Shown: positions 717 to 64,000 of the stretch, piece by piece
Position numbering within the stretch: the first letter of the stretch is position 1
How the letters are laid out: each line of letters starts with the position of its first letter
NCBI GenBank assembly: GCA_964019135.1
Contig: OZ025253.1
Location: forward strand, 1,954,233 to 2,018,232
Length of the DNA: 64,000 nucleotides
Source of the DNA: Arenicola marina
Lineage: Eukaryota > Annelida > Polychaeta > Arenicolidae
Direction of reading: 5' to 3'
Notes under the pieces: generated by a model
What the model was told of the DNA's origin: nothing
What the model saw: only the letters and a program-made list of their open reading frames with translations
The model's database searches: none
Translations under genes and position numbers: made by a program

Positions 717-877
717 AGGGCCCCCCGTCAAGCACTCTCCTGTACGCATCGCTAAGCATTACGTCTGACACCGAGTGCTCGACTCGCTACGCGTCCTCCC
801 CGGGACGAACAGACATCACGGACAACATGATATGTGCTACAGATAACCAGGGTGATATCACCAGGGACTCCTGCCAG
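717..877 (+). CDS. S1 (trypsin-like) serine protease, penultimate coding exon
   Basis: This exon encodes the stretch between the GWG region and the catalytic serine of a chymotrypsin-fold protease. Translated in the frame of codon 842-844 it reads EGPPSSTLLYASLSITSD, then TEC (Cys168 in chymotrypsin numbering), ITDNMICA (Cys182), and ends TRDSCQ (Asp189, Ser190, Cys191, Gln192). The Asp at 189 predicts cleavage after Arg or Lys. The exon ends CAG|GTACGTGA at 877/878 in phase 0, exactly where S1 genes of the trypsin/kallikrein type carry their last intron. An acceptor CGACAG at 711-716 gives a phase-1 start, which matches the known I-II-I-0 intron phase series of that group; 719 is the alternative start. 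Cys182 to Cys191 is two residues longer than in trypsin. His57 and Asp102 would lie in exons upstream of the window. The last 36 nt are the seed of array 1. The fold is certain; the subfamily is not. Confidence 0.88.
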
Positions 878-2885
878 GTACGTGACTCACTGACCGCCAG
901 GGCCACACCACCAGGGACTCTTGCCAGGTACGTGACTCACTGACCGCCAGGGCCACACCACCAGGGACTCCTGCCAGGTACGTGACTCACTGACCGCCAG
1001 GGCCACACCACCAGGGATTCCTGTCAGGTACGTGACTCACTGACCGCCAGGGCCACACCACCAGAGACTCCTGCCAGGTACGTGACTCACTGACCGCCAG
1101 GGCCACACCACCAGGGACTCCTGCCAGGTACGTGACTCACTGACCGCCAGGGCCACACCACCAGGGACTCCTGCCAGGTACGTGACTCACTGACCGCCAG
1201 GGCCACACCACCAGGGACTCCTGCCAGGTACGTGACTCACTGACCGCCAGGGCCACACCACCAGGGACTTCTGCCAGGTACGTGACTCACTGACCGCCAG
1301 GGCCACACCACCAGGGACTCCTGTCAGGTACGTGACTCACCGACCGCCAGGGCCACACCACCAGGGACTCCTGCCAGGTACGTGACTCACTGACCGCCAG
1401 GGCCACACCACCAGGGACTTCTGCCAGGTACGTGACTCACTGACCGCCAGGGCCACACCACCAGGGACTCCTGTCAGGTACGTAACTCACTGACCGCCAG
1501 GGCCACACCACCAGGGACTCCTGCCAGGTACGTGACTCACTGACCGCCAGGGCCACACCACCAGGGACTCCTGCCAGGTACGTGACTCACTGACCGCCAG
1601 GGCCACACCACCAGGGACTCCTGCCAGGTACGTGACTCACTGACCGCCAGGGCCACACCACCAGGGACTCCTGCCAGGTACGTGACTCACTGACCGCCAG
1701 GGCCACACCACCAGGGGCTCCTGCCAGGTACGTGACTCACTGACCGCCAGGGCCACACCACCAGGGACTTCTGCCAGGTACGTGACTCACTGACCGCCAG
1801 GGCCACACCACCAGGGACTCCTGCCAGGTACGTGACTCACTGACCGCCAGGGCCACACCACCAGGGACTCCTGTCAGGTACGTGACTCACTGACCGCCAG
1901 GGCCACACCACCAGAGACTCCTGCCAGGTACGTGACTCACTGACCGCCAGGGCCACACCACCAGGGACTCCTGCCAGGTACGTGACTCACTGACCGCCAG
2001 GGCCACACCACCAGAGACTCCTGCCAGGTACGTGACTCACTGACCGCCAGGGCCACACCACCAGGGACTCCTGCCAGGTACGTGACTCACTGACCGCCAG
2101 GGCCACACCACCAGGGATTCCTGTCAGGTACGTGACTCACTGACCGCCAGGGCCACACCACCAGGGACTCCTGCCAGGTACGTGACTCACTGACCGCCAG
2201 GGCCACACCACCAGGGACTCCTGCCAGGTACGTGACTCACTGACCGCCAGGGCCACACCACCAGGGACTTCTGCCAGGTACGTGACTCACTGACCGCCAG
2301 GGCCACACCACCAGGGACTCCTGCCAGGTACGTGACTCACTGACCGCCAGGGCCACACCACCAGGGACTCCTGTCAGGTACGTGACTCACTGACCGCCAG
2401 GGCCACACCACCAGGGACTCCTGTCAGGTACGTGACTCACTGACCGCCAGGGCCACACCACCAGGGACTCCTGCCAGGTACGTGACTCACTGACCGCCAG
2501 GGCCACACCACCAGGGACTCCTGCCAGGTACGTGACTCACTGACCGCCAGGGCCACACCACCAGGGACTTCTGCCAGGTACGTGACTCACTGACCGCCAG
2601 GGCCACACCACCAGGGACTCCTGCCAGGTACGTGACTCACTGACCGCCAGGGCCACACCACCAGGGACTCCTGCCAGGTACGTGACTCACTGACCGCCAG
2701 GGCCACACCACCAGGGACTCCTGCCAGGTACGTGACTCACTGACCGCCAGGGCCACACCACCAGGGACTTCTGCCAGGTACGTGACTCACTGACCGCCAG
2801 GGCCACACCACCAGGGACTCCTGCCAGGTACGTGACTCACTGACCGCCAGGGCCACACCACCAGGGACTCCTGTCAGGTACGTGA
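842..2885 (+). repeat. Array 1: 50-bp minisatellite spanning an exon end and its splice donor
   Basis: There are about 41 tandem copies. Splice-donor GTs fall at 878, 928 and so on to 2878, exactly 40 x 50 bp apart, so there is no net length change. Each unit is 36 nt resembling the protease exon end (842-877) followed by 14 intronic nt, gtacgtgactcact. In the exon's own frame the repeat version reads DRQGHTTRDSCQ against the native DNQGDITRDSCQ. Copies differ by scattered substitutions (for example CTGCC/CTGTC, GGGACTC/GGGACTT, GGGACTC/AGAGACTC), but in my reading AGGTACGT is kept in every one. The array ends when the last donor copy runs into unrelated DNA at about 2886. Each unit also holds a TGACTCA (AP-1 type) heptamer. 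Confidence 0.95.
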
Positions 2886-3733
2886 TACAGTAGTTTGTGA
2901 TGCTATTGTACAGTGTAAATTGTCACGCCCTCCATTCCTGTAACGTTGCGGGTTTGCACGTGTCTATGTGGTAATCCATACAGACGAATTCACAGCTTAC
3001 AGCCCTCTAAACGACGCTTCGATTTCGAGAATGGAAAGAACTATTACCCTGGACACAGTCTACTGCAAGACCCAGAATTTGATTTAGAGTCTACCCAGAT
3101 TGGAAATATAGGTCAGAGCCTGACCTGACCTAATTAGGAAAAACATTTCTTGCGCGTGTGGGTCATTGATCACGCGTGATTTACATACAACATATGCATC
3201 CCAGTCACAAATGCTCCGTATCTTTTGTGATATTTACATATTGTAGCCAAAAATATGTCAACTGAGATATATTTGGGAGGGTATACTCTATTTGCTTCAA
3301 CTTGAAATCACATGCTATGTTATAGAAACAGCCGGTAGGTTCCTCCTCTCCCCCAAATGTCGTTTCTCTCCACGAAATTATAGAGACGTACTTTCAGAAA
3401 GTCGGTGCGGAACTATGCTATCGCATTTGAATTGCATTTTAATCGCATTTGACATGCAGGAAAATCCCATGACACGCATCTGTAACCTGAGGTTACATGT
3501 CACGTGAATACTGTTCTGAGGCCAGTTTCACAATACCTTCGTAAGAGTAGTGTGACCCATAAATCCCGGTTCATCAAATCATCGCCACTCATTAACGTAA
3601 GATATATCGTAGGTTCCTTCGTACACCTATGAGTGCCTCGACCCTTCGTACCCGCAAAGATATATAATTTATTTCTACGGTATCCGTAAAAGTTGTTATC
3701 GCTGCCATGTAACGTATTATTACCATAAGTGTA
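2886..3733. other. Unannotated intronic DNA
   Basis: Apparently unique sequence between array 1 and the transposon remnant. Short open frames at 2946-3128 and 3292-3507 have no motif, no plausible splice structure and ordinary composition. I see no RNA gene or repeat beyond a small CCTGACCTGACCTAAT duplication near 3118-3133. Confidence 0.5.
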
Positions 3734-4569
3734 GTGCACTCCGCTTAATTGCAACTTCCGTTTGTCAGCAAAAAAGTTGCAATTAACCGAAGTTGCGATT
3801 ATCCGAAGTTTTTTTGACGGTTCAGAATGGACTACATCCACATACATGTACGTGTACATTTTATATACGACTCAGATGCACGTGTCTTCGCTAAACTGTC
3901 CTTATAAAGCGCTGCTGTTCGGACTCGTTTGTCCATGATCGTATAGTGAAGCCGTATTTGGTGCCGAAGACTTTATAGGCCACAACAGCATTATATATGT
4001 TATTACGTCTCACATCACAGCGAGGAACAAACACCCAAGGATAAAGGGATTAGACACATTTCATTACACATGAAGCTAACTTTTTCATGCATGTTGCAAT
4101 GAATTTCACATATACACAACATCTCCAGTCTTATCGTCTCCATAATGAGAGGGAGGACCAGAACAGGTTACAGGTTGCAGGGCAACGAGATGACTTCTTT
4201 GATGATGAACATGATGGCACCCATCACTTTTCTGATTTAAACATGACACACGTTGCTCAATGTTATTCACCCAAACGCAAAGAGACTGAAAGGATAGCAA
4301 AGCATGTGGTTTGTGTTTGTTGGTGAAGTCTGTTAATCCGGCGATAACAACACAGCTTTTAAGGTGTTAAGTGTCAGCTGATAGCGCATTATGTCTACAT
4401 GCCCGCTAACAACACCTGGTTTTGACCTCGAATATCGCAATTATCCGAATTTGTGATTAACCGAAGTTGTTAACATGTGAATGTGTAAGAAATGGCGTTG
4501 GGATTTGAGAATTGTTGCGATTAAGCGGAAGTGGCGATTAACCGAAGTGCGATTAATTGGCGCGAACTG
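3734..4569. mobile_element. Probable non-autonomous pogo/Tigger-like DNA transposon (MITE)
   Basis: Both ends carry diverged inverted copies of the same theme. The left end has CCGCTTAATTGCAACTTCCG (3741-3760). The reverse complement of the right end reads CCAATTAATCGCACTTCGG. Each is set just inside a TA dinucleotide (3732-3733 and 4570-4571), and the right end begins CAGT when read inward. Extra copies of GATTAACCGAAGT or ATTATCCGAA lie just inside both ends (3780-3807, 4436-4470, 4515-4550). TA target sites, CAGT ends and repeated terminal motifs of this kind are typical of pogo/Tigger elements. The roughly 600-bp interior has no transposase-like frame. It could instead be two separate terminal fragments. 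Confidence 0.5.
3747..3786. repeat. Small inverted repeat within the left transposon end
   Basis: TTAATTGCAACTT near 3746-3758 is followed about 16 bases later by its exact reverse complement AAGTTGCAATTAA (about 3774-3786), so the left end can fold as a hairpin. This agrees with a terminal region built from repeated inverted motifs. Confidence 0.65.
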
Positions 4570-5101
4570 TATATGCAAAATGACGCGAATTAACATTGCG
4601 GGGCACTAGTTTGTTGCAATTGCAAATGCGATTGAAAATGTATAGCATTTAAAACATACCCTTTGGTATTTCTTTCACTTCCGGCGTTAAAACATGTGGT
4701 ACGCAGGTTCGTAGGATGGGCTTTAGCCATACAAAATACAAAGGAGTACGATGGTTTTGTGAATCGTACGTACAATTCTCGTCCGAACCTTCGTATATAG
4801 ACTACGTGTAACGTACGGTAAGATGGTGACGTGGAACTGGCCCCTGGGCCCTCTCAGGATATCGGGTAGCCAGCCATAGGGCACAGGGCGTCACCGTGTA
4901 AAGGTGGAGGGACAAATGGAGCCGGCGCATAAGGCCACTCCATGTCTCTGTGTGGTTATGGCCTAGATTCTCGCAGACGCGGACAACCGGCTCGCCATCT
5001 GATTGGCTAACCATGCGTGTGTCCCAAGCTCTGTTGCTTAACATAGATATTTGTGTTCGCTGTACGTGTACTAAACGCCATGTTTGTTCCTCGCGGTCCA
5101 G
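4570..5101. other. Unannotated 3' part of the protease intron
   Basis: No repeat or RNA gene is recognised here. The 116-codon minus-strand frame at 4802-5152 overlaps the last exon in antisense and shows no domain, so it is not called. The final bases before 5102 supply a moderate pyrimidine-containing acceptor. Confidence 0.5.
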
Positions 5102-5272
5102 GGTGATTCCGGAGGTCCCTTGGTGACCCGGGAGGTGGACGGACGGTTCCATCTGCCTGGAATCGTGTCCTGGGGCCAGAAGTGCGCAGGAGGCTTCCCG
5201 GGAGTCTACGTCAAGGTCAACAACTACTTCTCCTGGATCGATAGCGTCATACCAGACGTCGACCGCCTCTGA
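5102..5272 (+). CDS. S1 (trypsin-like) serine protease, last coding exon with stop
   Basis: The exon encodes 56 residues and a stop. It opens with GDSGGPLV, which contains the nucleophile Ser195 and its oxyanion-hole glycine. It continues with GIVSWGQKC (Ser214-Trp215-Gly216 of the S1 wall, Cys220), GFPGVYVKV (Gly226) and the C-terminal helix [11 protein letters not shown], ending DVDRL. The start at 5102 follows the AG acceptor and is in phase with the upstream exon; it is the usual last-intron position in trypsin/kallikrein genes. Glycines at 216 and 226 together with Asp189 in the upstream exon indicate an open, basic-residue-cleaving pocket. The position after GDSGGPLV, normally Cys201, is Thr here, so the conserved 136-201 disulfide should be missing. 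The last 51 nt are the seed of array 2. No transmembrane or extra domain follows the protease domain. Confidence 0.93.
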
Positions 5273-5773
5273 GCGATGACGTCACTACCTGAATCAATGG
5301 CTTGGTACCTGACACCAACCGTCTCTGAGTGATGACGTCACTTCTTGTTCTGGATCACTGGCTTGGTACACGCCGCCGACCGCCTCTGAGTGATGACGTC
5401 ACTACTTGTTATGGATCAGTGGCTTGGTACCCGCCGCCGACCGTCTCTGAGTTATGACGTCACTACTTGTTCTGGATCAGTGGCTTGGTACCCACCACCG
5501 ACCGTCTGTGAGTGATGACGTCACTACTTGTTCTGGATCAGTTGCCTGGTAGCAGCCGCCGACCGCATCTGAGCGATGACGTCATTACTTGTTCTGGATC
5601 AGTGGCCTGGTACCAGCCGCCGACCGTCTCTGAGTTATGACGTCACTACGTGTTTTGGATCATTGGTTTGGTACCGGACACCAACCGCCTCTAAGTGATG
5701 ACGTCACTACTTGTTCTGGATCAGTGGCTCGGTACCGGCCACCGACCGACTGAGAGTGATGACGTCATTACTT
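5222..5773 (+). repeat. Array 2: 61-bp repeat made from the last 17 codons, the stop and flank
   Basis: Unit starts fall at 5222 (native), 5283, 5339, 5400, 5461, 5522, 5583, 5644 and 5705, with a partial copy at 5766. The period is 61 bp except for one 56-bp copy. Read in phase, the copies give HYLFWISGLVPAADRL-stop or close variants, against [16 protein letters not shown]-stop at the native exon end. Units are 51 nt derived from coding sequence plus 10 nt of flank. All carry the palindrome TGACGTCA just after the stop. Copies are visibly more diverged than those of array 1, suggesting an older or less homogenised array. The stop is lost in the final full copy. Confidence 0.93.
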
Positions 5774-6248: not shown

Positions 6249-9200
6249 CTAAACCAACAGACGTCACCTACGCGGCACTGGGCCAACGTGTATCACCAAC
6301 ACGGCACTAAACCAACAGACGTCACCTACGCGGCACTGGGCCAACGTGTATCACCAACAGGGCACTAAACCAACAGACGTCACCTACGCGGCACTGGGCC
6401 AACGTGTATCACCAACAGGGCACTAAACCAACAGACGTCACCTAGGCGGCACTGGGCCAACGTGTATCACCAACAGGGCACTAAACCAACAGACGTCACC
6501 TACGCGGCACTGGGCCAACGTGTATCACCAACAGGGCACTAAACCAACAGACGTCACCTACGCGGCACTTGGCCAACGTGTATCACCAACAGGGCACTAA
6601 ACCAACAGACGTCACCTACGCGGCACTGGGCCAACGTGTATCACCAACAGGGCACTAAACCAACAGACGTCACCTACGCGGCACTGGGCCAACGTGTATC
6701 ACCAACAGGGCACTAAACCAACAGACGTCACCTACGCGGCACTGGGCCAACGTGTATCACCAACAGGGCACTAAACCAACAGACGTCACCTACGCGGCAC
6801 TGGGCCAACGTGTATCACCAACAGGGCACTAAACCAACAGACGTCACCTACGCGGCACTGGGCCAACGTGTATCACCAACAGGGCACTAAACCAACAGAC
6901 GTCACCTACGCGGCACTGGGCCAACGTGTATCACCAACAGGGCACTAAACCAACAGACGTCACCTACGCGGCACTGGGCCAACGTGTATCACCAACAGGG
7001 CACTAAACCAACAGACGTCACCTACGCGGCACTGGGCCAACGTGTATCACCAACAGGGCACTAAACCAACAGACGTCACCTACGCGGCACTGGGCCAACG
7101 TGTATCACCAACAGGGCACTAAACCAACAGACGTCACCTACGCGGCACTGGGCCAACGTGTATCACCAACACGGCACTAAACCAACAGACGTTACCTACG
7201 CGGCACTGGGCCAACGTGTATCACCAACAGGGCACTAAACCAACAGACGTTACCTACGCGGCACTGGGCCAACGTGTATCACCAACAGGGCACTAAACCA
7301 ACAGACGTTACCTACGCGGCACTGGGCCAACGTGTATCACCAACAGGGCACTAAACCAACAGACGTCACCTACGCGGCACTGGGCCAACGTGTATCACCA
7401 ACAGGGCACTAAACCAACAGACGTCACCTACGCGGCACTGGGCCAACGTGTATCACCAACAGGGCACTAAACCAACAGACGTCACCTACGCGGCACTGGG
7501 CCAACGTGTATCACCAACAGGGCACTAAACCAACAGACGTCACCTACGCGGCACTGGGCCAACGTGTATCACCAACAGGGCACTAAACCAACAGACGTCA
7601 CCTACGCGGCACTGGGCCAACGTGTATCACCAACAGGGCACTAAACCAACAGACGTCACCTACGCGGCACTGGGCCAACGTGTATCACCAACAGGGCACT
7701 AAACCAACAGACGTCACCTACGCGGCACTGGGCCAACGTGTATCACCAACAGGGCACTAAACCAACAGACGTCACCTACGCGGCACTGGGCCAACGTGTA
7801 TCACCAACAGGGCACTAAACCAACAGACGTCACCTACGCGGCACTGGGCCAACGTGTATCACCAACAGGGCACTAAACCAACAGACATCACCTACGCGGC
7901 ACTGGGCCAACGTGTATCACCAACACGGCACTAAACCAACAGACGTCACCTACGCGGCACTGGGCCAACGTGTATCACCAACACGGCACTAAACCAACAA
8001 ACGTCACCTACGCGGCACTGGGCCAACGTGTATCACCAACAGGGCACTAAACCAACAGACGTCACCTACGCGGCACTGGGCCAACGTGTATCACCAACAG
8101 GGCACTAAACCAACAGACGTCACCTAGGCGGCACTGGGCCAACGTGTATCACCAACAGGGCACTAAACCAACAGACGTCACCTACGCGGCACTGGGCCAA
8201 CGTGTATCACCAACATGGCACTAAACCAACAGACGTCACCTACGCGGCACTGGGCCAACGTGTATCACCAACACGGCACTAAACCAACAGACGTCACCTA
8301 CGCGGCACTGGGCCAACGTGTATCACCAACAGGGCACTAAACCAACAGACGTCACCTACGCGGCACTGGGCCAACGTGTATCACCAACAGGGCACTAAAC
8401 CAACAGACGTCACCTACGCGGCACTAGGCCAACGTGTATCACCAACACGGCACTAAACCAACAGACGTCACCTACGCGGCACTGGGCCAACGTGTATCAC
8501 CAACAGGGCACTAAACCAACAGACGTCACCTACGCGGCACTAGGCCAACGTGTATCACCAACACGGCACTAAACCAACAGACGTCACCTACGCGGCACTG
8601 GGCCAACGTGTATCACCAACAGGGCACTAAACCAACAGACGTCACCTACGCGGCACTGGGCCAACGTGTATCACCAACAGGGCACTAAACCAACAGACGT
8701 CACCTACGCGGCACTGGGCCAACGTGTATCACCAACAGGGCACTAAACCAACAGACGTCACCTACGCGGCACTGGGCCAACGTGTATCACCAACAGGGCA
8801 CTAAACCAACAGACGTCACCTACGCGGCACTGGGCCAACGTGTATCACCAACAGGGCACTAAACCAACAGACGTCACCTACGCGGCACTGGGCCAACGTG
8901 TATCACCAACAGGGCACTAAACCAACAGACGTCACCTACGCGGCACTGGGCCAACGTGTATCACCAACAGGGCACTAAACCAACAGACGTCACCTACGCG
9001 GCACTAGGCCAACGTGTATCACCAACAGGGCACTAAACCAACAGACGTCACCTACGCGGCACTGGGCCAACGTGTATCACCAACAGGGCACTAAACCAAC
9101 AGACGTCACCTACGCGGCACTGGGCCAACGTGTATCACCAACAGGGCACTAAACCAACAGACGTCACCTACGCGGCACTGGGCCAACGTGTATCACCAAC

Positions 9201-12200
9201 AGGGCACTAAACCAACAGACGTCACCTACGCGGCACTGGGCCAACGTGTATCACCAACAGGGCACTAAACCAACAGACGTCACCTACGCGGCACTGGGCC
9301 AACGTGTATCACCAACAGGGCACTAAACCAACAGACATCACCTACGCGGCACTGGGCCAACGTGTATCACCAACAGGGCACTAAACCAACAGACGTCACC
9401 TACGCGGCACTGGGCCAACGTGTATCACCAACAGGGCACTAAACCAACAGACGTCACCTACGCGGCACTGGGCCAACGTGTATCACCAACAGGGCACTAA
9501 ACCAACAGACGTCACCTACGCGGCACTGGGCCAACGTGTATCACCAACAGGGCACTAAACCAACAGACATCACCTACGCGGCACTGGGCCAACGTGTATC
9601 ACCAACAGGGCACTAAACCAACAGACGTCACCTACGCGGCACTGGGCCAACGTGTATCACCAACAGGGCACTAAACCAACAGACGTCACCTACGCGGCAC
9701 TGGGCCAACGTGTATCACCAACAGGGCACTAAACCAACAGACGTCACCTACGCGGCACTGGGCCAACGTGTATCACCAACAGGGCACTAAACCAGCAGAC
9801 GTCACCTACGCGGCACTGGGCCAACGTGTATCACCAACAGGGCACTAAACCAACAGACGTCACCTACGCGGCACTGGGCCAACGTGTATCACCAACAGGG
9901 CACTAAACCAACAGACGTCACCTACGCGGCACTGGGCCAACGTGTATCACCAACAGGGCACTAAACCAACAGACGTCACCTACGCGGCACTGGGCCAACG
10001 TGTATCACCAACAGGGCACTAAACCAACAGACGTCACCTACGCGGCACTGGGCCAACGTGTATCACCAACAGGGCACTAAACCAACAGACGTCACCTACG
10101 CGGCACTGGGCCAACGTGTATCACCAACAGGGCACTAAACCAACAGACGTCACCTACGCGGCACTGGGCCAACGTGTATCACCAACAGGGCACTAAACCA
10201 ACAGACGTCACCTACGCGGCACTGGGCCAACGTGTATCACCAACAGGGCACTAAACCAACAGACGTCACCTACGCGGCACTGGGCCAACGTGTATCACCA
10301 ACAGGGCACTAAGCCAACAGACGTCACCTACGCGGCACTGGGCCAACGTGTATCACCAACAGGGCACTAAACCAACAGACGTCACCTACGCGGCACTGGG
10401 CCAACGTGTATCACCAACAGGGCACTAAACCAACAGACGTCACCTACGCGGCACTGGGCCAACGTGTATCACCAACAGGGCACTAAACCAACAGACGTCA
10501 CCTACGCGGCACTGGGCCAACGTGTATCACCAACAGGGCACTAAACCAACAGACGTCACCTACGCGGCACTGGGCCAACGTGTATCACCAACAGGGCACT
10601 AAACCAACAGACGTCACCTACGCGGCACTGGGCCAACGTGTATCACCAACAGGGCACTAAACCAACAGACGTCACCTACGCGGCACTGGGCCAACGTGTA
10701 TCACCAACAGGGCACTAAACCAACAGACGTCACCTACGCGGCACTGGGCCAACGCGTATCACCAACAGGGCACTAAACCAACAGACGTCACCTACGCGGC
10801 ACTGGGCCAACGTGTATCACCAACAGGGCACTAAACCAACAGACGTCACCTACGCGGCACTGGGCCAACGTGTATCACCAACACGGCACTAAACCAACAG
10901 ACGTCACCTACGCGGCACTGGGCCAACGTGTATCACCAACAGGGCACTAAACCAACAGACGTCACCTACGCGGCACTGGGCCAACGTGTATCACCAACAG
11001 GGCACTAAACCAACAGACGTCACCTACGCGGCACTGGGCCAACGTGTATCACCAACAGGGCACTAAACCAACAGACGTCACCTACGCGGCACTAGGCCAA
11101 CGTGTATCACCAACAGGGCACTAAACCAACAGACGTCACCCACGCGGCACTGGGCCAACGTGTATCACCAACAGGGCACTAAACCAACAGACGTCACCTA
11201 CGCGGCACTGGGCCAACGTGTATCACCAACAGGGCACTAAACCAACAGACGTCACCTACGCGGCACTGGGCCAACGTGTATCACCAACAGGGCACTAAAC
11301 CAACAGACGTCACCTACGCGGCACTGGGCCAACGTGTATCACCAACAGGGCACTAAACCAACAGACGTCACCTACGCGGCACTGGGCCAACGTGTATCAC
11401 CAACAGGGCACTAAACCAACAGACGTCACCTACGCGGCACTAGGCCAACGTGTATCACCAACAGGGCACTAAACCAACAGACGTCACCTACGCGGCACTG
11501 GGCCAACGTGTATCACCAACAGGGCACTAAACCAACAGACGTCACCTACGCGGCACTGGGCCAACGTGTATCACCAACAGGGCACTAAACCAACAGACGT
11601 CACCTACGCGGCACTAGGCCAACGTGTATCACCAACAGGGCACTAAACCAACAGACGTCACCTACGCGGCACTGGGCCAACGTGTATCACCAACAGGGCA
11701 CTAAACCAACAGACATCACCTACGCGGCACTAGGCCAACGTGTATCACCAACAGGGCACTAAACCAACAGACATCACCTACGCGGCACTAGGCCAACGTG
11801 TATCACCAACAGGGCACTAAACCAACAGACGTCACCTACGCGGCACTAGGCCAACGTGTATCACCAACAGGGCACTAAACCAACAGACGTCACCTACGCG
11901 GCACTGGGCCAACGTGTATCACCAACAGGGCACTAAACCAACAGACGTCACCTACGCGGCACTGGGCCAACGTGTATCACCAACAGGGCACTAAACCAAC
12001 AGACGTCACCTACGCGGCACTGGGCCAACGTGTATCACCAACAGGGCACTAAACCAACAGACGTCACCTACGCGGCACTGGGCCAACGTGTATCACCAAC
12101 AGGGCACTAAACCAACAGACGTCACCTACGCGGCACTGGGCCAACGTGTATCACCAACAGGGCACTAAACCAACAGACGTCACCTACGCGGCACTGGGCC

Positions 12201-13900
12201 AACGTGTATCACCAACAGGGCACTAAACCAACAGACGTCACCTACGCGGCACTAGGCCAACGTGTATCACCAACAGGGCACTAAACCAACAGACGTCACC
12301 TACGCGGCACTGGGCCAACGTGTATCACCAACAGGGCACTAAACCAACAGACGTCACCTACGCGGCACTAGGCCAACGTGTATCACCAACAGGGCACTAA
12401 ACCAACAGACGTCACCTACGCGGCACTGGGCCAACGTGTATCACCAACAGGGCACTAAACCAACAGACGTCACCTACGCGGCACTGGGCCAACGTGTATC
12501 ACCAACAGGGCACTAAACCAACAGACGTCACCTACGCGGCACTGGGCCAACGTGTATCACCAACAGGGCACTAAACCAACAGACGTCACCTACGCGGCAC
12601 TGGGCCAACGTGTATCACCAACAGGGCACTAAACCAACAGACGTTACCTACGCGGCACTGGGCCAACGTGTATCACCAACAGGGCACTAAACCAACAGAC
12701 GTTACCTACGCGGCACTGGGCCAACGTGTATCACCAACAGGGCACTAAACCAACAGACGTCACCTACGCGGCACTGGGCCAACGTGTATCACCAACAGGG
12801 CACTAAACCAACAGACGTCACCTACGCGGCACTGGGCCAACGTGTATCACCAACAGGGCACTAAACCAACAGACGTCACCTACGCGGCACTGGGCCAACG
12901 TGTATCACCAACAGGGCACTAAACCAACAGACGTCACCTACGCGGCACTGGGCCAACGTGTATCACCAACAGGGCACTAAACCAACAGACGTCACCTACG
13001 CGGCACTGGGCCAACGTGTATCACCAACAGGGCACTAAACCAACAGACGTCACCTACGCGGCACTGGGCCAACGTGTATCACCAACAGGGCACTAAACCA
13101 ACAGACGTTACCTACGCGGCACTGGGCCAACGTGTATCACCAACAGGGCACTAAACCAACAGACGTCACCTACGCGGCACTGGGCCAACGTGTATCACCA
13201 ACAGGGCACTAAACCAACAGACGTTACCTACGCGGCACTGGGCCAACGTGTATCACCAACAGGGCACTAAACCAACAGACGTCACCTACGCGGCACTGGG
13301 CCAACGTGTATCACCAACAGGGCACTAAACCAACAGACGTCACCTACGCGGCACTGGGCCAACGTGTATCACCAACAGGGCACTAAACCAACAGACGTCA
13401 CCTACGCGGCACTGGGCCAACGTGTATCACCAACAGGGCACTAAACCAACAGACGTCACCTACGCGGCACTGGGCCAACGTGTATCACCAACAGGGCACT
13501 AAGCCAACAGACATCACCTACGCGGCACTGGGCCAACGTGTATCACCAACAGGGCACTAAACCAACAGACGTCACCTACGCGGCACTGGGCCAACGTGTA
13601 TCACCAACAGGGCACTAAACCAACAGACATCACCTACGCGGCACTGGGCCAACGTGTATCACCAACAGGGCACTAAACCAACAGACATCACCTACGCGGC
13701 ACTGGGCCAACGTGTATCACCAACAGGGCACTAAACCAACAGACGTCACCTACGCGGCACTGGGCCAACGTGTATCACCAACAGGGCACTAAACCAACAG
13801 ACGTCACCTACGCGGCACTGGGCCAACGTGTATCACCAACAGGGCACTAAACCAACAGACGTCACCTACGCGGCACTGGGCCAACGTGTATCACCAACAG

Positions 13901-14480
13901 GGCACTAAACCAACAGACGTCACCTACGCGGCACTAGGCCAACGTGTATCACCAACAGGGCACTAAGCCAACAGACATCACCTACGCGGCACTGGGCCAA
14001 CGTGTATCACCAACAGGGCACTAAACCAACAGACATCACCTACGCGGCACTGGGCCAACGTGTATCACCAACAGGGCACTAAACCAACAGACGTCACCTA
14101 CGCGGCACTAGGCCAACGTGTATCACCAACAGGGCACTAAACCAACAGACGTCACCTACGCGGCACTGGGCCAACGTGTATCACCAACAGGGCACTAAAC
14201 CAACAGACGTCACCTACGCGGCACTGGGCCAACGTGTATCACCAACAGGGCACTAAACCAACAGACGTCACCTACGCGGCACTGGGCCAACGTGTATCAC
14301 CAACAGGGCACTAAACCAACAGACGTCACCTACGCGGCACTAGGCCAACGTGTATCACCAACAGGGCACTAAGCCAACAGACATCACCTACGCGGCACTG
14401 GGCCAACGTGTATCACCAACAGGGCACTAAACCAACAGACATCACCTACGCGGCACTGGGCCAACGTGTATCACCAACAC
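13901..14480. repeat. Seven-unit higher-order repeat inside array 3
   Basis: A diagnostic run of three units (CACTAGG variant, then AAGCC+GACATC, then GACATC) at 13901-14074 recurs at 14307-14480, exactly 406 bp (7 x 58) later. A related AAGCC+GACATC unit lies at 13495, eight units before the first. This is the footprint of local block duplication by unequal exchange. Confidence 0.75.
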
Positions 14481-16569
14481 GGCACTAAACCAACAGACGT
14501 TACCTACGCGGCACTGGGCCAACGTGTATCACCAACACGGCACTAAACCAACAGACGTCACCTACGCGGCACTGGGCCAACGTGTATCACCAACACGGCA
14601 CTAAACCAACAGACATCACCTACGCGGCACTGGGCCAACGTGTATCACCAACACGGCACTAAACCAACAGACGTTACCTACGCGGCACTGGGCCAACGTG
14701 TATCACCAACAGGGCACTAAACCAACAGACGTCACCTACGCGGCACTGGGCCAACGTGTATCACCAACAGGGCACTAAACCAACAGACGTCACCTACGCG
14801 GCACTGGGCCAACGTGTATCACCAACACGGCACTAAACCAACAGACGTCACCTACGCGGCACTGGGCCAACGTGTATCACCAACAGGGCACTAAACCAAC
14901 AGACGTCACCTACGCGGCACTAGGCCAACGCGTATCACCAACAGGGCACTAAACCAACAGACGTTACCTACGCGGCACTGGGCCAACGTGTATCACCAAC
15001 AGGGCACTAAACCAACAGACGTTACCTACGCGGCACTGGGCCAACGTGTATCACCAACACGGCACTAAACCAACAGACGTTACCTACGCGGCACTGGGCC
15101 AACGTGTATCACCAACAGGGCACTAAACCAACAGACGTTACCTACGCGGCACTGGGCCAACGTGTATCACCAACAGGGCACTAAACCAACAGACGTTACC
15201 TACGCGGCACTGGGCCAACGTGTATCACCAACAGGGCACTAAACCAACAGACGTCACCTACGCGGCACTGGGCCAACGTGTATCACCAACAGGGCACTAA
15301 ACCAACAGACGTTACCTACGCGGCACTGGGCCAACGTGTATCACCAACAGGGCACTAAACCAACAGACGTTACCTACGCGGCACTGGGCCAACGTGTATC
15401 ACCAACAGGGCACTAAACCAACAGACGTTACCTACGCGGCACTGGGCCAACGTGTATCACCAACAGGGCACTAAACCAACAGACGTCACCTACGCGGCAC
15501 TGGGCCAACGTGTATCACCAACAGGGCACTAAACCAACAGACGTCACCTACGCGGCACTGGGCCAACGTGTATCACCAACAGGGCACTAAACCAACAGAC
15601 GTCACCTACGCGGCACTGGGCCAACGTGTATCACCAACAGGGCACTAAACCAACAGACGTTACCTACGCGGCACTGGGCCAACGTGTATCACCAACAGGG
15701 CACTAAACCAACAGACGTTACCTACGCGGCACTGGGCCAACGTGTATCACCAACAGGGCACTAAACCAACAGACGTCACCTACGCGGCACTGGGCCAACG
15801 TGTATCACCAACAGGGCACTAAACCAACAGACGTTACCTACGCGGCACTGGGCCAACGTGTATCACCAACAGGGCACTAAACCAACAGACGTTACCTACG
15901 CGGCACTGGGCCAACGTGTATCACCAACAGGGCACTAAACCAACAGACGTTACCTACGCGGCACTGGGCCAACGTGTATCACCAACAGGGCACTAAACCA
16001 ACAGACGTCACCTACGCGGCACTGGGCCAACGTGTATCACCAACAGGGCACTAAACCAACAGACGTCACCTACGCGGCACTGGGCCAACGTGTATCACCA
16101 ACAGGGCACTAAACCAACAGACGTCACCTACGCGGCACTGGGCCAACGTGTATCACCAACAGGGCACTAAACCAACAGACGTCACCTACGCGGCACTGGG
16201 CCAACGTGTATCACCAACAGGGCACTAAACCAACAGACGTCACCTACGCGGCACTGGGCCAACGTGTATCACCAACAGGGCACTAAACCAACAGACGTCA
16301 CCTACGCGGCACTGGGCCAACGTGTATCACCAACAGGGCACTAAACCAACAGACGTCACCTACGCGGCACTGGGCCAACGTGTATCACCAACAGGGCACT
16401 AAACCAACAGACGTCACCTACGCGGCACTGGGCCAACGTGTATCACCAACAGGGCACTAAACCAACAGACGTCACCTACGCGGCACTGGGCCAACGTGTA
16501 TCACCAACAGGGCACTAAACCAACAGACGTCACCTACGCGGCACTGGGCCAACGTGTATCACCAACAGG

Positions 16570-17095
16570 GCACTAAACCAACAGACGTCACCTAGGCGGC
16601 ACTGGGCCAACGTGTATCACCAACAGGGCACTAAACCAACAGACGTCACCTACGCGGCACTAGGCCAACGTGTATCACCAACAGGGCACTAAACCAACAG
16701 ACGTCACCTAGGCGGCACTGGGCCAACGCGTATCACCAACAGGGCACTAAACCAACAGACGTCACCTACGCGGCACTAGGCCAACGTGTATCACCAACAG
16801 GGCACTAAACCAACAGACGTCACCTAGGCGGCACTGGGCCAACGTGTATCACCAACAGGGCACTAAACCAACAGACGTCACCTACGCGGCACTAGGCCAA
16901 CGTGTATCACCAACAGGGCACTAAACCAACAGACGTCACCTAGGCGGCACTGGGCCAACGTGTATCACCAACAGGGCACTAAACCAACAGACGTCACCTA
17001 CGCGGCACTAGGCCAACGCGTATCACCAACAGGGCACTAAACCAACAGACGTCACCTACGCGGCACTAGGCCAACGCGTATCACCAACAGGGCAC
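16570..17095. repeat. Dimeric (116-bp) higher-order repeat at the 3' end of array 3
   Basis: Unit types alternate strictly: CTAGGCGG...CACTGGG, then CTACGCGG...CACTAGG, four times over from about 16590 to 17000, ending with a further CTACGCGG/CACTAGG copy. The amplified module here is a pair of units, unlike the monomer-by-monomer pattern of most of the array. Confidence 0.8.
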
Positions 17096-17100
17096 TAAAC

Positions 17101-17345
17101 CCACGAGCATCACCCGCGCGGCATTGAACTTACAAGCCAGACCACTAAGGCAGTTGACACCACGCCTACCGTGCACTCCTCCGATACCATTTGCCCTGGA
17201 ACATGAGATAACACCAAATCAGTAACTGGACAATGATCGTTTACGCCAATCCTGACATACAGATGCTTCGCATATTACACCATACCACTTGGGTTTACAG
17301 ACACTGAATAGACAGTATTATATGGCGGTGGCCATTGCATATCTT
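17101..17345. other. Unannotated sequence after array 3
   Basis: The first ~40 bases still resemble a heavily diverged 58-bp unit (CCACGAGCATCACCCGCGCG). Beyond that I see no gene or repeat. Confidence 0.45.
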
Positions 17346-62900: not shown

Positions 62901-64000
62901 CACTCATGGGTCGGGGCAAGGAGAGGTGGCATGAAATGAGGGGAGGGAGGTACGTCAGTCACTCATGGGTGGGGGCAAGGAGAGGTGGCATGAAATGAGG
63001 GGAGGGAGGTACGTCAGTCACTCATGGGTGGGGGCAAGGAGAGGTGGCATGAAATGAGGGGAGGGAGGTACGTCCGTCACTCATGGGTGGGTGCAAGGAG
63101 AGGTGGCATGAAATGAGGGGTGGGAGGTACGTCCGTCACTCATGGGTGGGGGCAAGGAGAGGTGGCATGAAATGAGGGGAGGGAGGTACGTCCGTCACTC
63201 ATGGGTGGGTGCAAGGAGAGGTGGCATGAAATGAGGGGAGGGAGGTACGTCCGTCACTCATGGGTGGGGGCAAGGAGAGGTGGCATGAAATGAGGGGAGG
63301 GAGGTACGTCCGTCACTCATGGGTGGGGGCAAGGAGAGGTGGCATGAAATGAGGGGAGGGAGGTACGTCCGTCACTCATGGGTGGGTGCAAGGAGAGGTG
63401 GCATGAAATGAGGGGTGGGAGGTACGTCCGTCACTCATGGGTAGGGGCAAGGAGAGGTGGCATGAAATGAGGGGTGGGAGGTACGTCAGTCACTCATGGG
63501 TGAGGGCAAGGAGAGGTGGCATGAAATTAGGGGAGGGAGGTACGTCAGTCACTCATGGGTGGGGGCAAGGAGAGGTGGCATGAAATGAGGGGAGGGAGGT
63601 ACGTCAGTCACTCATGGGTGAGGGCAAGGAGAGGTGGCATGAAATGAGGGGAGGGAGGTACGTCCGTCACTCATGGGTGGGTGCAAGGAGAGGTGGCATG
63701 AAATGAGGGGTGGGAGGTACGTCAGTCACTCATGGGTGGGGGCAAGGAGAGGTGGCATGAAATGAGGGGAGGGAGGTACGTCAGTCACTCATGGGTGGGG
63801 GGGAGGAGAGGTGGCATGAAATGAGGGGTGGGAGGTACGTCAGTCACTCATGGGTCGGGGCAAGGAGAGGTGGCCTGAAATGAGGGGTGGGAGGTACGTC
63901 AGTCACTCATGGGTGGGGGCAAGGAGAGGTGGCATGAAATGAGGGGAGGGAGGTACGTCAGTCACTCATGGGTGGGGGGGAGGAGAGGTGGCATGAAATG

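Follow-up and report, generated by a model that had tools for sequence, protein, structure and literature searches.

Minisatellite-like tandem duplications that span exon-intron boundaries, many of them with AG/GT, have been described in amphioxus under the name of mirages (PMC3087553, PMC3902484). As excerpted here, these papers name the globin genes BflGb6 and BflGb9 together with Adh3, TnC and PGBD5 as hosts, state that the data suggest no disturbance of regular splicing, and present a model in which mirages yield new introns (PMC3087553, PMC3902484). In this study, we analysed a 64,000-nucleotide stretch of the annelid Arenicola marina (bases 1954233-2018232 of contig C6 in a genome of 867 Mb; hereafter the window), in which an exon of a trypsin-like (S1) protease gene runs into a minisatellite whose 50-bp unit copies the 3' end of that exon together with its splice donor. 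We consider it quite probable that this array is such a mirage, that is, a neutral intronic minisatellite that would stay silent since splicing takes the first donor. Among the papers listed in our literature searches, the word "mirages" was used for such repeats only in amphioxus papers, and no further case of a donor-copying minisatellite was found, as judged by title and abstract start.

Host gene and anatomy of the array

The features of the locus are as follows (a slash marks the exon-intron junction).

717..877, + strand: penultimate coding exon of the trypsin-like (S1) protease, 161 nt, with ...ITRDSCQ as its last residues; the AG at 715-716 sets its putative 5' edge
842..2885, + strand: 50-bp minisatellite, native exon end and donor followed by 40 more copies; 41 AG/GTACGT donors at 876+50k (Tandem Repeats Finder, motif count)
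878..5101, + strand: intron joining both exons; starts GTACGT, ends CCAG and contains every copy except the native exon end (sequence, frame continuity)
941..943, + strand: in-frame TGA, met when donor 978 or any later one is used (exon frame)
5102..5272, + strand: final coding exon; carries the catalytic-serine motif GDSGGP and, at 5270-5272, the stop TGA (frame, Pfam)

Read across the join, the exon frame ...DNMICATDNQGDITRDSCQ continues at 5102 through GDSGGP to the TGA at 5270-5272. The joined two-exon stretch scored 83.3 bits against the Pfam Trypsin family (cut-off 20.6) and, judged from these last two exons, the host gene is an S1 trypsin-like protease. Its best relative of solved structure was 1ym0, which we take to be an earthworm enzyme.

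Tandem Repeats Finder placed the array at 859-2885 (period 50, 40.5 copies, 97% matches, score 3893), and AGGTACGT was found at 876+50k for k=0 to 40, giving 41 occurrences in 41 units, one per unit. The exact 50-bp spacing of the 41 donors bears out the sequence-only reading of this stretch, which had proposed a tandem unit composed of the exon end and the donor AG/GTACGT. That reading was also correct in calling the native copy the most divergent: measured against the unit consensus, the native copy (842-891) has 7 differences in 50 positions, every one of them within its initial 17 exon bases, whereas the final copy has 4 and each of the 39 inner copies has 0-2. The array thus has the mirage trait of a homogenised interior with divergent edges. 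The constant 3' part of the exon copy exists as described, with a length of 19 nt rather than 15, and the peptide said to be encoded by each copy is found exactly in 33 of the 40 added copies (DRQGHTTRDSCQ), the others encoding DRQGHTTRDFCQ (6 copies) or DRQGHTTRGSCQ (1 copy).

The unit had been divided into 36 exon and 14 intron nt, which is possible; a division into 32 exon and 18 intron nt may fit better, because the introns of the paralogue L010 start with the same 18 bases. These bases, GTACGTGACTCACTGACC, are common to the window (878-895) and L010 (4308-4325), which lie 12.7 Mb apart. The proposal that only the first donor keeps the protease in frame held up as well. Use of donor 928 shifts the frame, which then ends in VIPEVPW followed by a stop in the last exon, and every donor after 928 brings in the TGA at 941-943; GDSGGP is in frame with none of the 40 later donors.

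Arrays in sister genes and the age of the intron

A search with the 58 residues of the exon identified 12 complete related exons on C6, and tandem copies of the exon end were present in 12/12. The next partial exon copy lies exactly 82 bp downstream in 11 related C6 exons and 50 bp downstream in the window gene. We read five of the cluster genes as stretches of 8-9 kb (L009, L011-L014). The results showed that the exon is followed by 82-bp units (63 exon and 19 intron bases), a decayed stretch and then 28-bp units, which likewise contain CAGGTACGTG; TACGTGACTCACTGA is kept in 5/5 of these genes downstream of the 82-bp units. Copy number varies between paralogues, as is typical of mirages, with 2.5 copies of the 82-bp unit in four genes and 9.5 in L009, and with 27 to 38 copies of the 28-bp unit. 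Another of the 12 exons, L047, carries the 82-bp unit with the donor GTATGT. The paralogue L010 has six 82-bp units and DYGGP instead of DSGGP (5347-5499), and no complete upstream exon was matched in it; it is probably a pseudogene or dead enzyme still bearing the 82-bp donor array.

The decayed stretch of L009 aligns over about 1.3 units to the 50-bp unit of the window (score 51, against 21 for the best of 500 shuffles). Because L009 retains this relic while its exons differ from those of the window gene by 0.57-0.63 at silent sites (pS), the 50-bp-type unit probably predates the split of the window and cluster genes. For the 18-base intron start common to the window and L010, constraint or exchange between arrays would be a better explanation than drift.

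Seven of the 15 listed distant S1 exons, on C2, C11, C13 and C18, were then compared by reading about 170 bp at each. No repeat of exon and donor was seen within these 170 bp at 7/7 exons, and GT stood at the same place in 7/7. Three of them had repeated 12-mers in which exon and donor take no part: L042 showed a C-run, and L043 and L045 showed short repeats within the intron. All seven show GT but no array, which makes it probable that the intron is old and that the C6 subfamily acquired the array later. The earlier claim that the unit was derived from the exon end and its donor is supported by this comparison, by the match of 27/32 exon bases between the unit and the native exon end, and by the copying of the same end in all 12 related exons.

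Two other origins were rejected. Gain of the intron by tandem duplication does not agree with the GT at the same place in 7/7 array-free relatives (splice sites putative). As to an introner or other mobile intron element, which would lie scattered across unrelated genes, CAGGTACGTGACTCA occurs 248 times, and the 100 places listed are all on C6, in the window array and at 4.92-5.11 Mb; its 41 forward matches comprise 39 in the window and 2 in L010.

The donor might instead be a hot spot at which each paralogue grew its own array. The unit sizes differ (50, 82 and 28 bp), the 50-bp unit matches the exon of its own gene at those 27 of 32 bases, and arrays occur at donors in unrelated genes too, all of which would agree with repeated independent origin. 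The shared 18-base intron start and the 50-bp-type relic in L009 argue against it, and we regard it as unlikely.

Selection on the copies and choice of the donor

We propose that the array may go back to a chance event in which the exon-donor boundary of the S1 protease gene was duplicated in tandem, and that it would then have grown by slippage or unequal exchange. Under exon definition, a donor is paired with the upstream acceptor across the exon. The spliceosome would take donor 878, paired with the upstream acceptor over the normal 161-nt exon, and the duplication would be tolerated because the first donor, so paired, is the one used. Everything beyond 878, including the 40 further donors, would be removed as intron and left free to expand and evolve neutrally. 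The array would have arisen in the ancestor of the C6 protease subfamily and remained at this donor as the genes duplicated, with one unit giving way to another (50, 82, 28 bp). Use of the first donor, the duplication mechanism and a single origin are the steps that we infer.

To compare selection inside and outside the arrays, we counted silent and changing differences. Between the window and L009, the native exons gave a proportion of changing differences (pN) of 0.26, against the pS of 0.57-0.63 given above. The 82-bp pseudo-exons contained 5 silent and 12 changing distinct variants in L009 (nine units including the native one) and 3 silent and 13 changing variants in L010 (five units), with 12.3 silent to 50.7 changing sites in both cases; pairwise pN/pS among the L010 units was 0.97. 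These results indicate that the exon pieces inside the L009 and L010 arrays drift about neutrally and that the real exons are constrained. Near-neutral copies fit a silent array beside a working gene, which would depend on use of the first donor.

Several observations weigh against the proposed explanation. Pairwise pN/pS among the L009 units was 0.50, not 1. Each of the 41 donors of the window is intact, and no 9-base stretch of the unit varies less than the donor (rank 1 of 50); in an array of the genome sample described below, L033, the donor is intact in 42/45 copies and ranks 2 of 53 for low variability. Pure neutrality predicts neither rank. The 18-base intron start is identical between the window and L010 despite strongly diverged exons, and at L040, an exon among the seven without an array, the donor is poor (GTCCGG). 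The array donors also match the first exactly, which leaves strength unable to account for the choice. Nor does predicted folding set the first apart, and all 41 are predicted to be less accessible than the average 9-base stretch.

The donors of the array might be functional, as U1-site decoys, as a means of telescripting (protection of a long intron against premature polyadenylation), or as a regulated switch to a truncated protease without the catalytic serine. The intact donors of the window and L033 arrays speak for such a function, as do arrays at the same donor in all 12 complete C6 exons. In five other arrays, however, the donor was not specially conserved (variability ranks 26 of 59, 43 of 68, 59 of 68, 11 of 28 and 10 of 28), the donor consensus is gone from 8/37 copies in the 28-bp L011 array, and the pseudo-exons are near neutral. 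The evidence for a general donor constraint inside arrays is mixed, the donor being least or second least variable in 2/7 arrays. Functional donors appear distinctly improbable to us, and the arrays can be explained without them.

Returning to the silent array, we considered whether predicted RNA structure could direct the choice of donor. In the folding prediction, all 41 donors were paired, with an unpaired probability of at most 0.003 compared with 0.02 for the average 9-base stretch, and six short donor stretches folded no better than shuffles (z -1.61 to 0.85). The first donor was not set apart among the 41, and its choice through RNA structure was rejected on the basis of this prediction, in which it folds like the other 40.

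A recursive-splicing ladder, in which each CAG/GTACGT junction would serve as an acceptor fused to a donor and the intron would be excised in successive steps, each a multiple of 50 nt, that the mRNA would not reveal, is very unlikely. The unit sequence allows it, including CTGAC, a branch-point-like word by consensus, in each unit. However, the junction pattern is automatic from any copied CAG/GT exon end, the pyrimidine tract appears weak, and single 50-nt steps are near or below the usual intron size. An assembly artefact or chance repeat is scarcely credible, for although long arrays are difficult to assemble, the units bear individual variants, the contigs are chromosome-scale (18 of C1-C21 are at least 33 Mb), and eleven further complete exons show a duplication of the same boundary.

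Other arrays in the genome and comparison with known systems

To sample the genome, we took 10 kb at each of 18 arbitrary fixed positions (L017-L034). Tandem repeats cover 35% of the sampled bases, indicating a repeat-rich genome, and 39 arrays had a period of at least 20 and at least 4 copies. Donors were scored with a donor weight matrix at four thresholds (7, 8, 9 and 10). A strong donor (score at least 10) was present in 3/39 arrays, compared with means of 0.5 for equal-length non-array segments and 0.9 for shuffles; at least 3 strong-donor arrays were obtained in 0.6% of 3000 draws of non-array segments. Because the excess over shuffles shrinks at threshold 9 (3 arrays vs 2.0) and vanishes at 7 and 8, the enrichment rests on the strictest of the four thresholds. 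Two of these three arrays, lying in 2/18 samples, begin where an open exon-like frame ends and the donor follows.

L017:3715-4395: donor array, 68 bp x 10
L033:1557-4046: donor array, 53 bp x 47

In the profile search, the likeness of the L033 frame to the final part of an isochorismatase domain stayed under the family cut-off (13.5 and 13.1 vs 27 bits), and the L017 frame gave no family match. L019 is filled by 147 copies of a 68-bp unit with AAG/GTAAGC. Beyond the window, boundary-spanning arrays were found in L009-L014, L017 and L033.

Genome-wide, triple-donor patterns gave 7592 matches vs 1834 for the reversed word, 1894 vs 447, and 2875 vs 913; the control words gave 5065 vs 2866 (scrambled) and 1479 vs 729 (acceptor). 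These triple-donor matches probably trace back to a restricted set of large arrays, and the lists of their locations cannot be relied on as complete (an array at 1.564 Mb of C1 fits the 7592-match pattern and is absent from its list). Outside arrays, the donor word MAGGTRAGT was no commoner than two control words in 116 kb of samples (2, 3 and 3 matches). With such uneven controls, the genome-wide enrichment of donor arrays is suggestive only. Were the samples representative, such arrays would number in the thousands; the sample is much too small to put a figure on this. It is a tentative and rather doubtful idea that donors are favoured birthplaces of minisatellites genome-wide, with thousands of introns holding tens to hundreds of copied donors under a strict first-donor rule and with the arrays as a standing source of new exons and introns.

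The protease gene has a second boundary array.

5260..5773, + strand: 61-bp unit, 8.5 copies, starting in the last codons and copying the stop codon region (GACCGCCTCTGA...) (Tandem Repeats Finder)

It hints at a rule that repeats can grow downstream of any first-copy-wins signal. Just downstream of the gene lies a 58-bp array (6249-17123, 187.5 copies, 98% matches), and a 59-bp array extends from 20858 to the window end at 64000 with about 730 units, GAGGTACGT being kept in 669/713 units read. No exon was seen beside the latter, and we do not claim it as a mirage. Among 15 pairs of units tested, the 59-bp unit resembles the 50-bp (p 0.007), 28-bp (0.017) and 61-bp (0.020) units; the 50-bp and 28-bp units share AGGTACGT. 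Just upstream of the window, in L015 (1-9538), 190.6 copies of an unrelated 50-bp unit form an array that may belong to the preceding intron. Elsewhere in the genome, one globin exon matches extracellular giant-haemoglobin chains, which are presumably annelid. The mitochondrial order nad3-nad2-cox1-cox2-atp8-cox3 (frame reading; cox1 alone model-confirmed) fits the annelid blocks nad3-S1-nad2 and cox1-N-cox2 given in the excerpted source (PMC2667193). Together with 1ym0 as the best solved relative of the protease, these features point to an annelid, and amphioxus was rejected as the host; a search for GFP gave no match, and neither did its controls.

The protease arrays offer a natural experiment on how the spliceosome chooses among dozens of identical donors, in which strength is constant and position differs. 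Among known systems, the earthworm metallothionein genes also belong to an annelid and have minisatellites in introns; unlike the protease array, no unit copying a splice donor is described there in the excerpted text (PMC12783039). Intron gain by AG/GT tandem duplication (Rogers model, as cited in PMC3087553; potato RdRp, PMC4974935) is alike in duplicating the AG/GT site; here, however, the intron probably predates the array, given the GT in 7/7 distant relatives, and no new intron is shown. The closest likeness is to the amphioxus mirages, which in the excerpts share the homogenised interior, divergent edges and variable copy number (PMC3087553, PMC3902484). The array of the worm has 41 copies, compared with 3 and 6 reported there for two BflGb6 haplotypes; its host is an annelid, whereas amphioxus is a cephalochordate, and the same exon end bears arrays in all 12 complete exons of the subfamily. 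This annelid case, extending across a subfamily and to two other exon-like frames, suggests a wider animal phenomenon and allows the idea that tandem repeats give rise to new exons or introns to be tested. The kind of element is already known and named; what is new is the annelid phylum, the larger number of copies and the occurrence of arrays across a gene subfamily.
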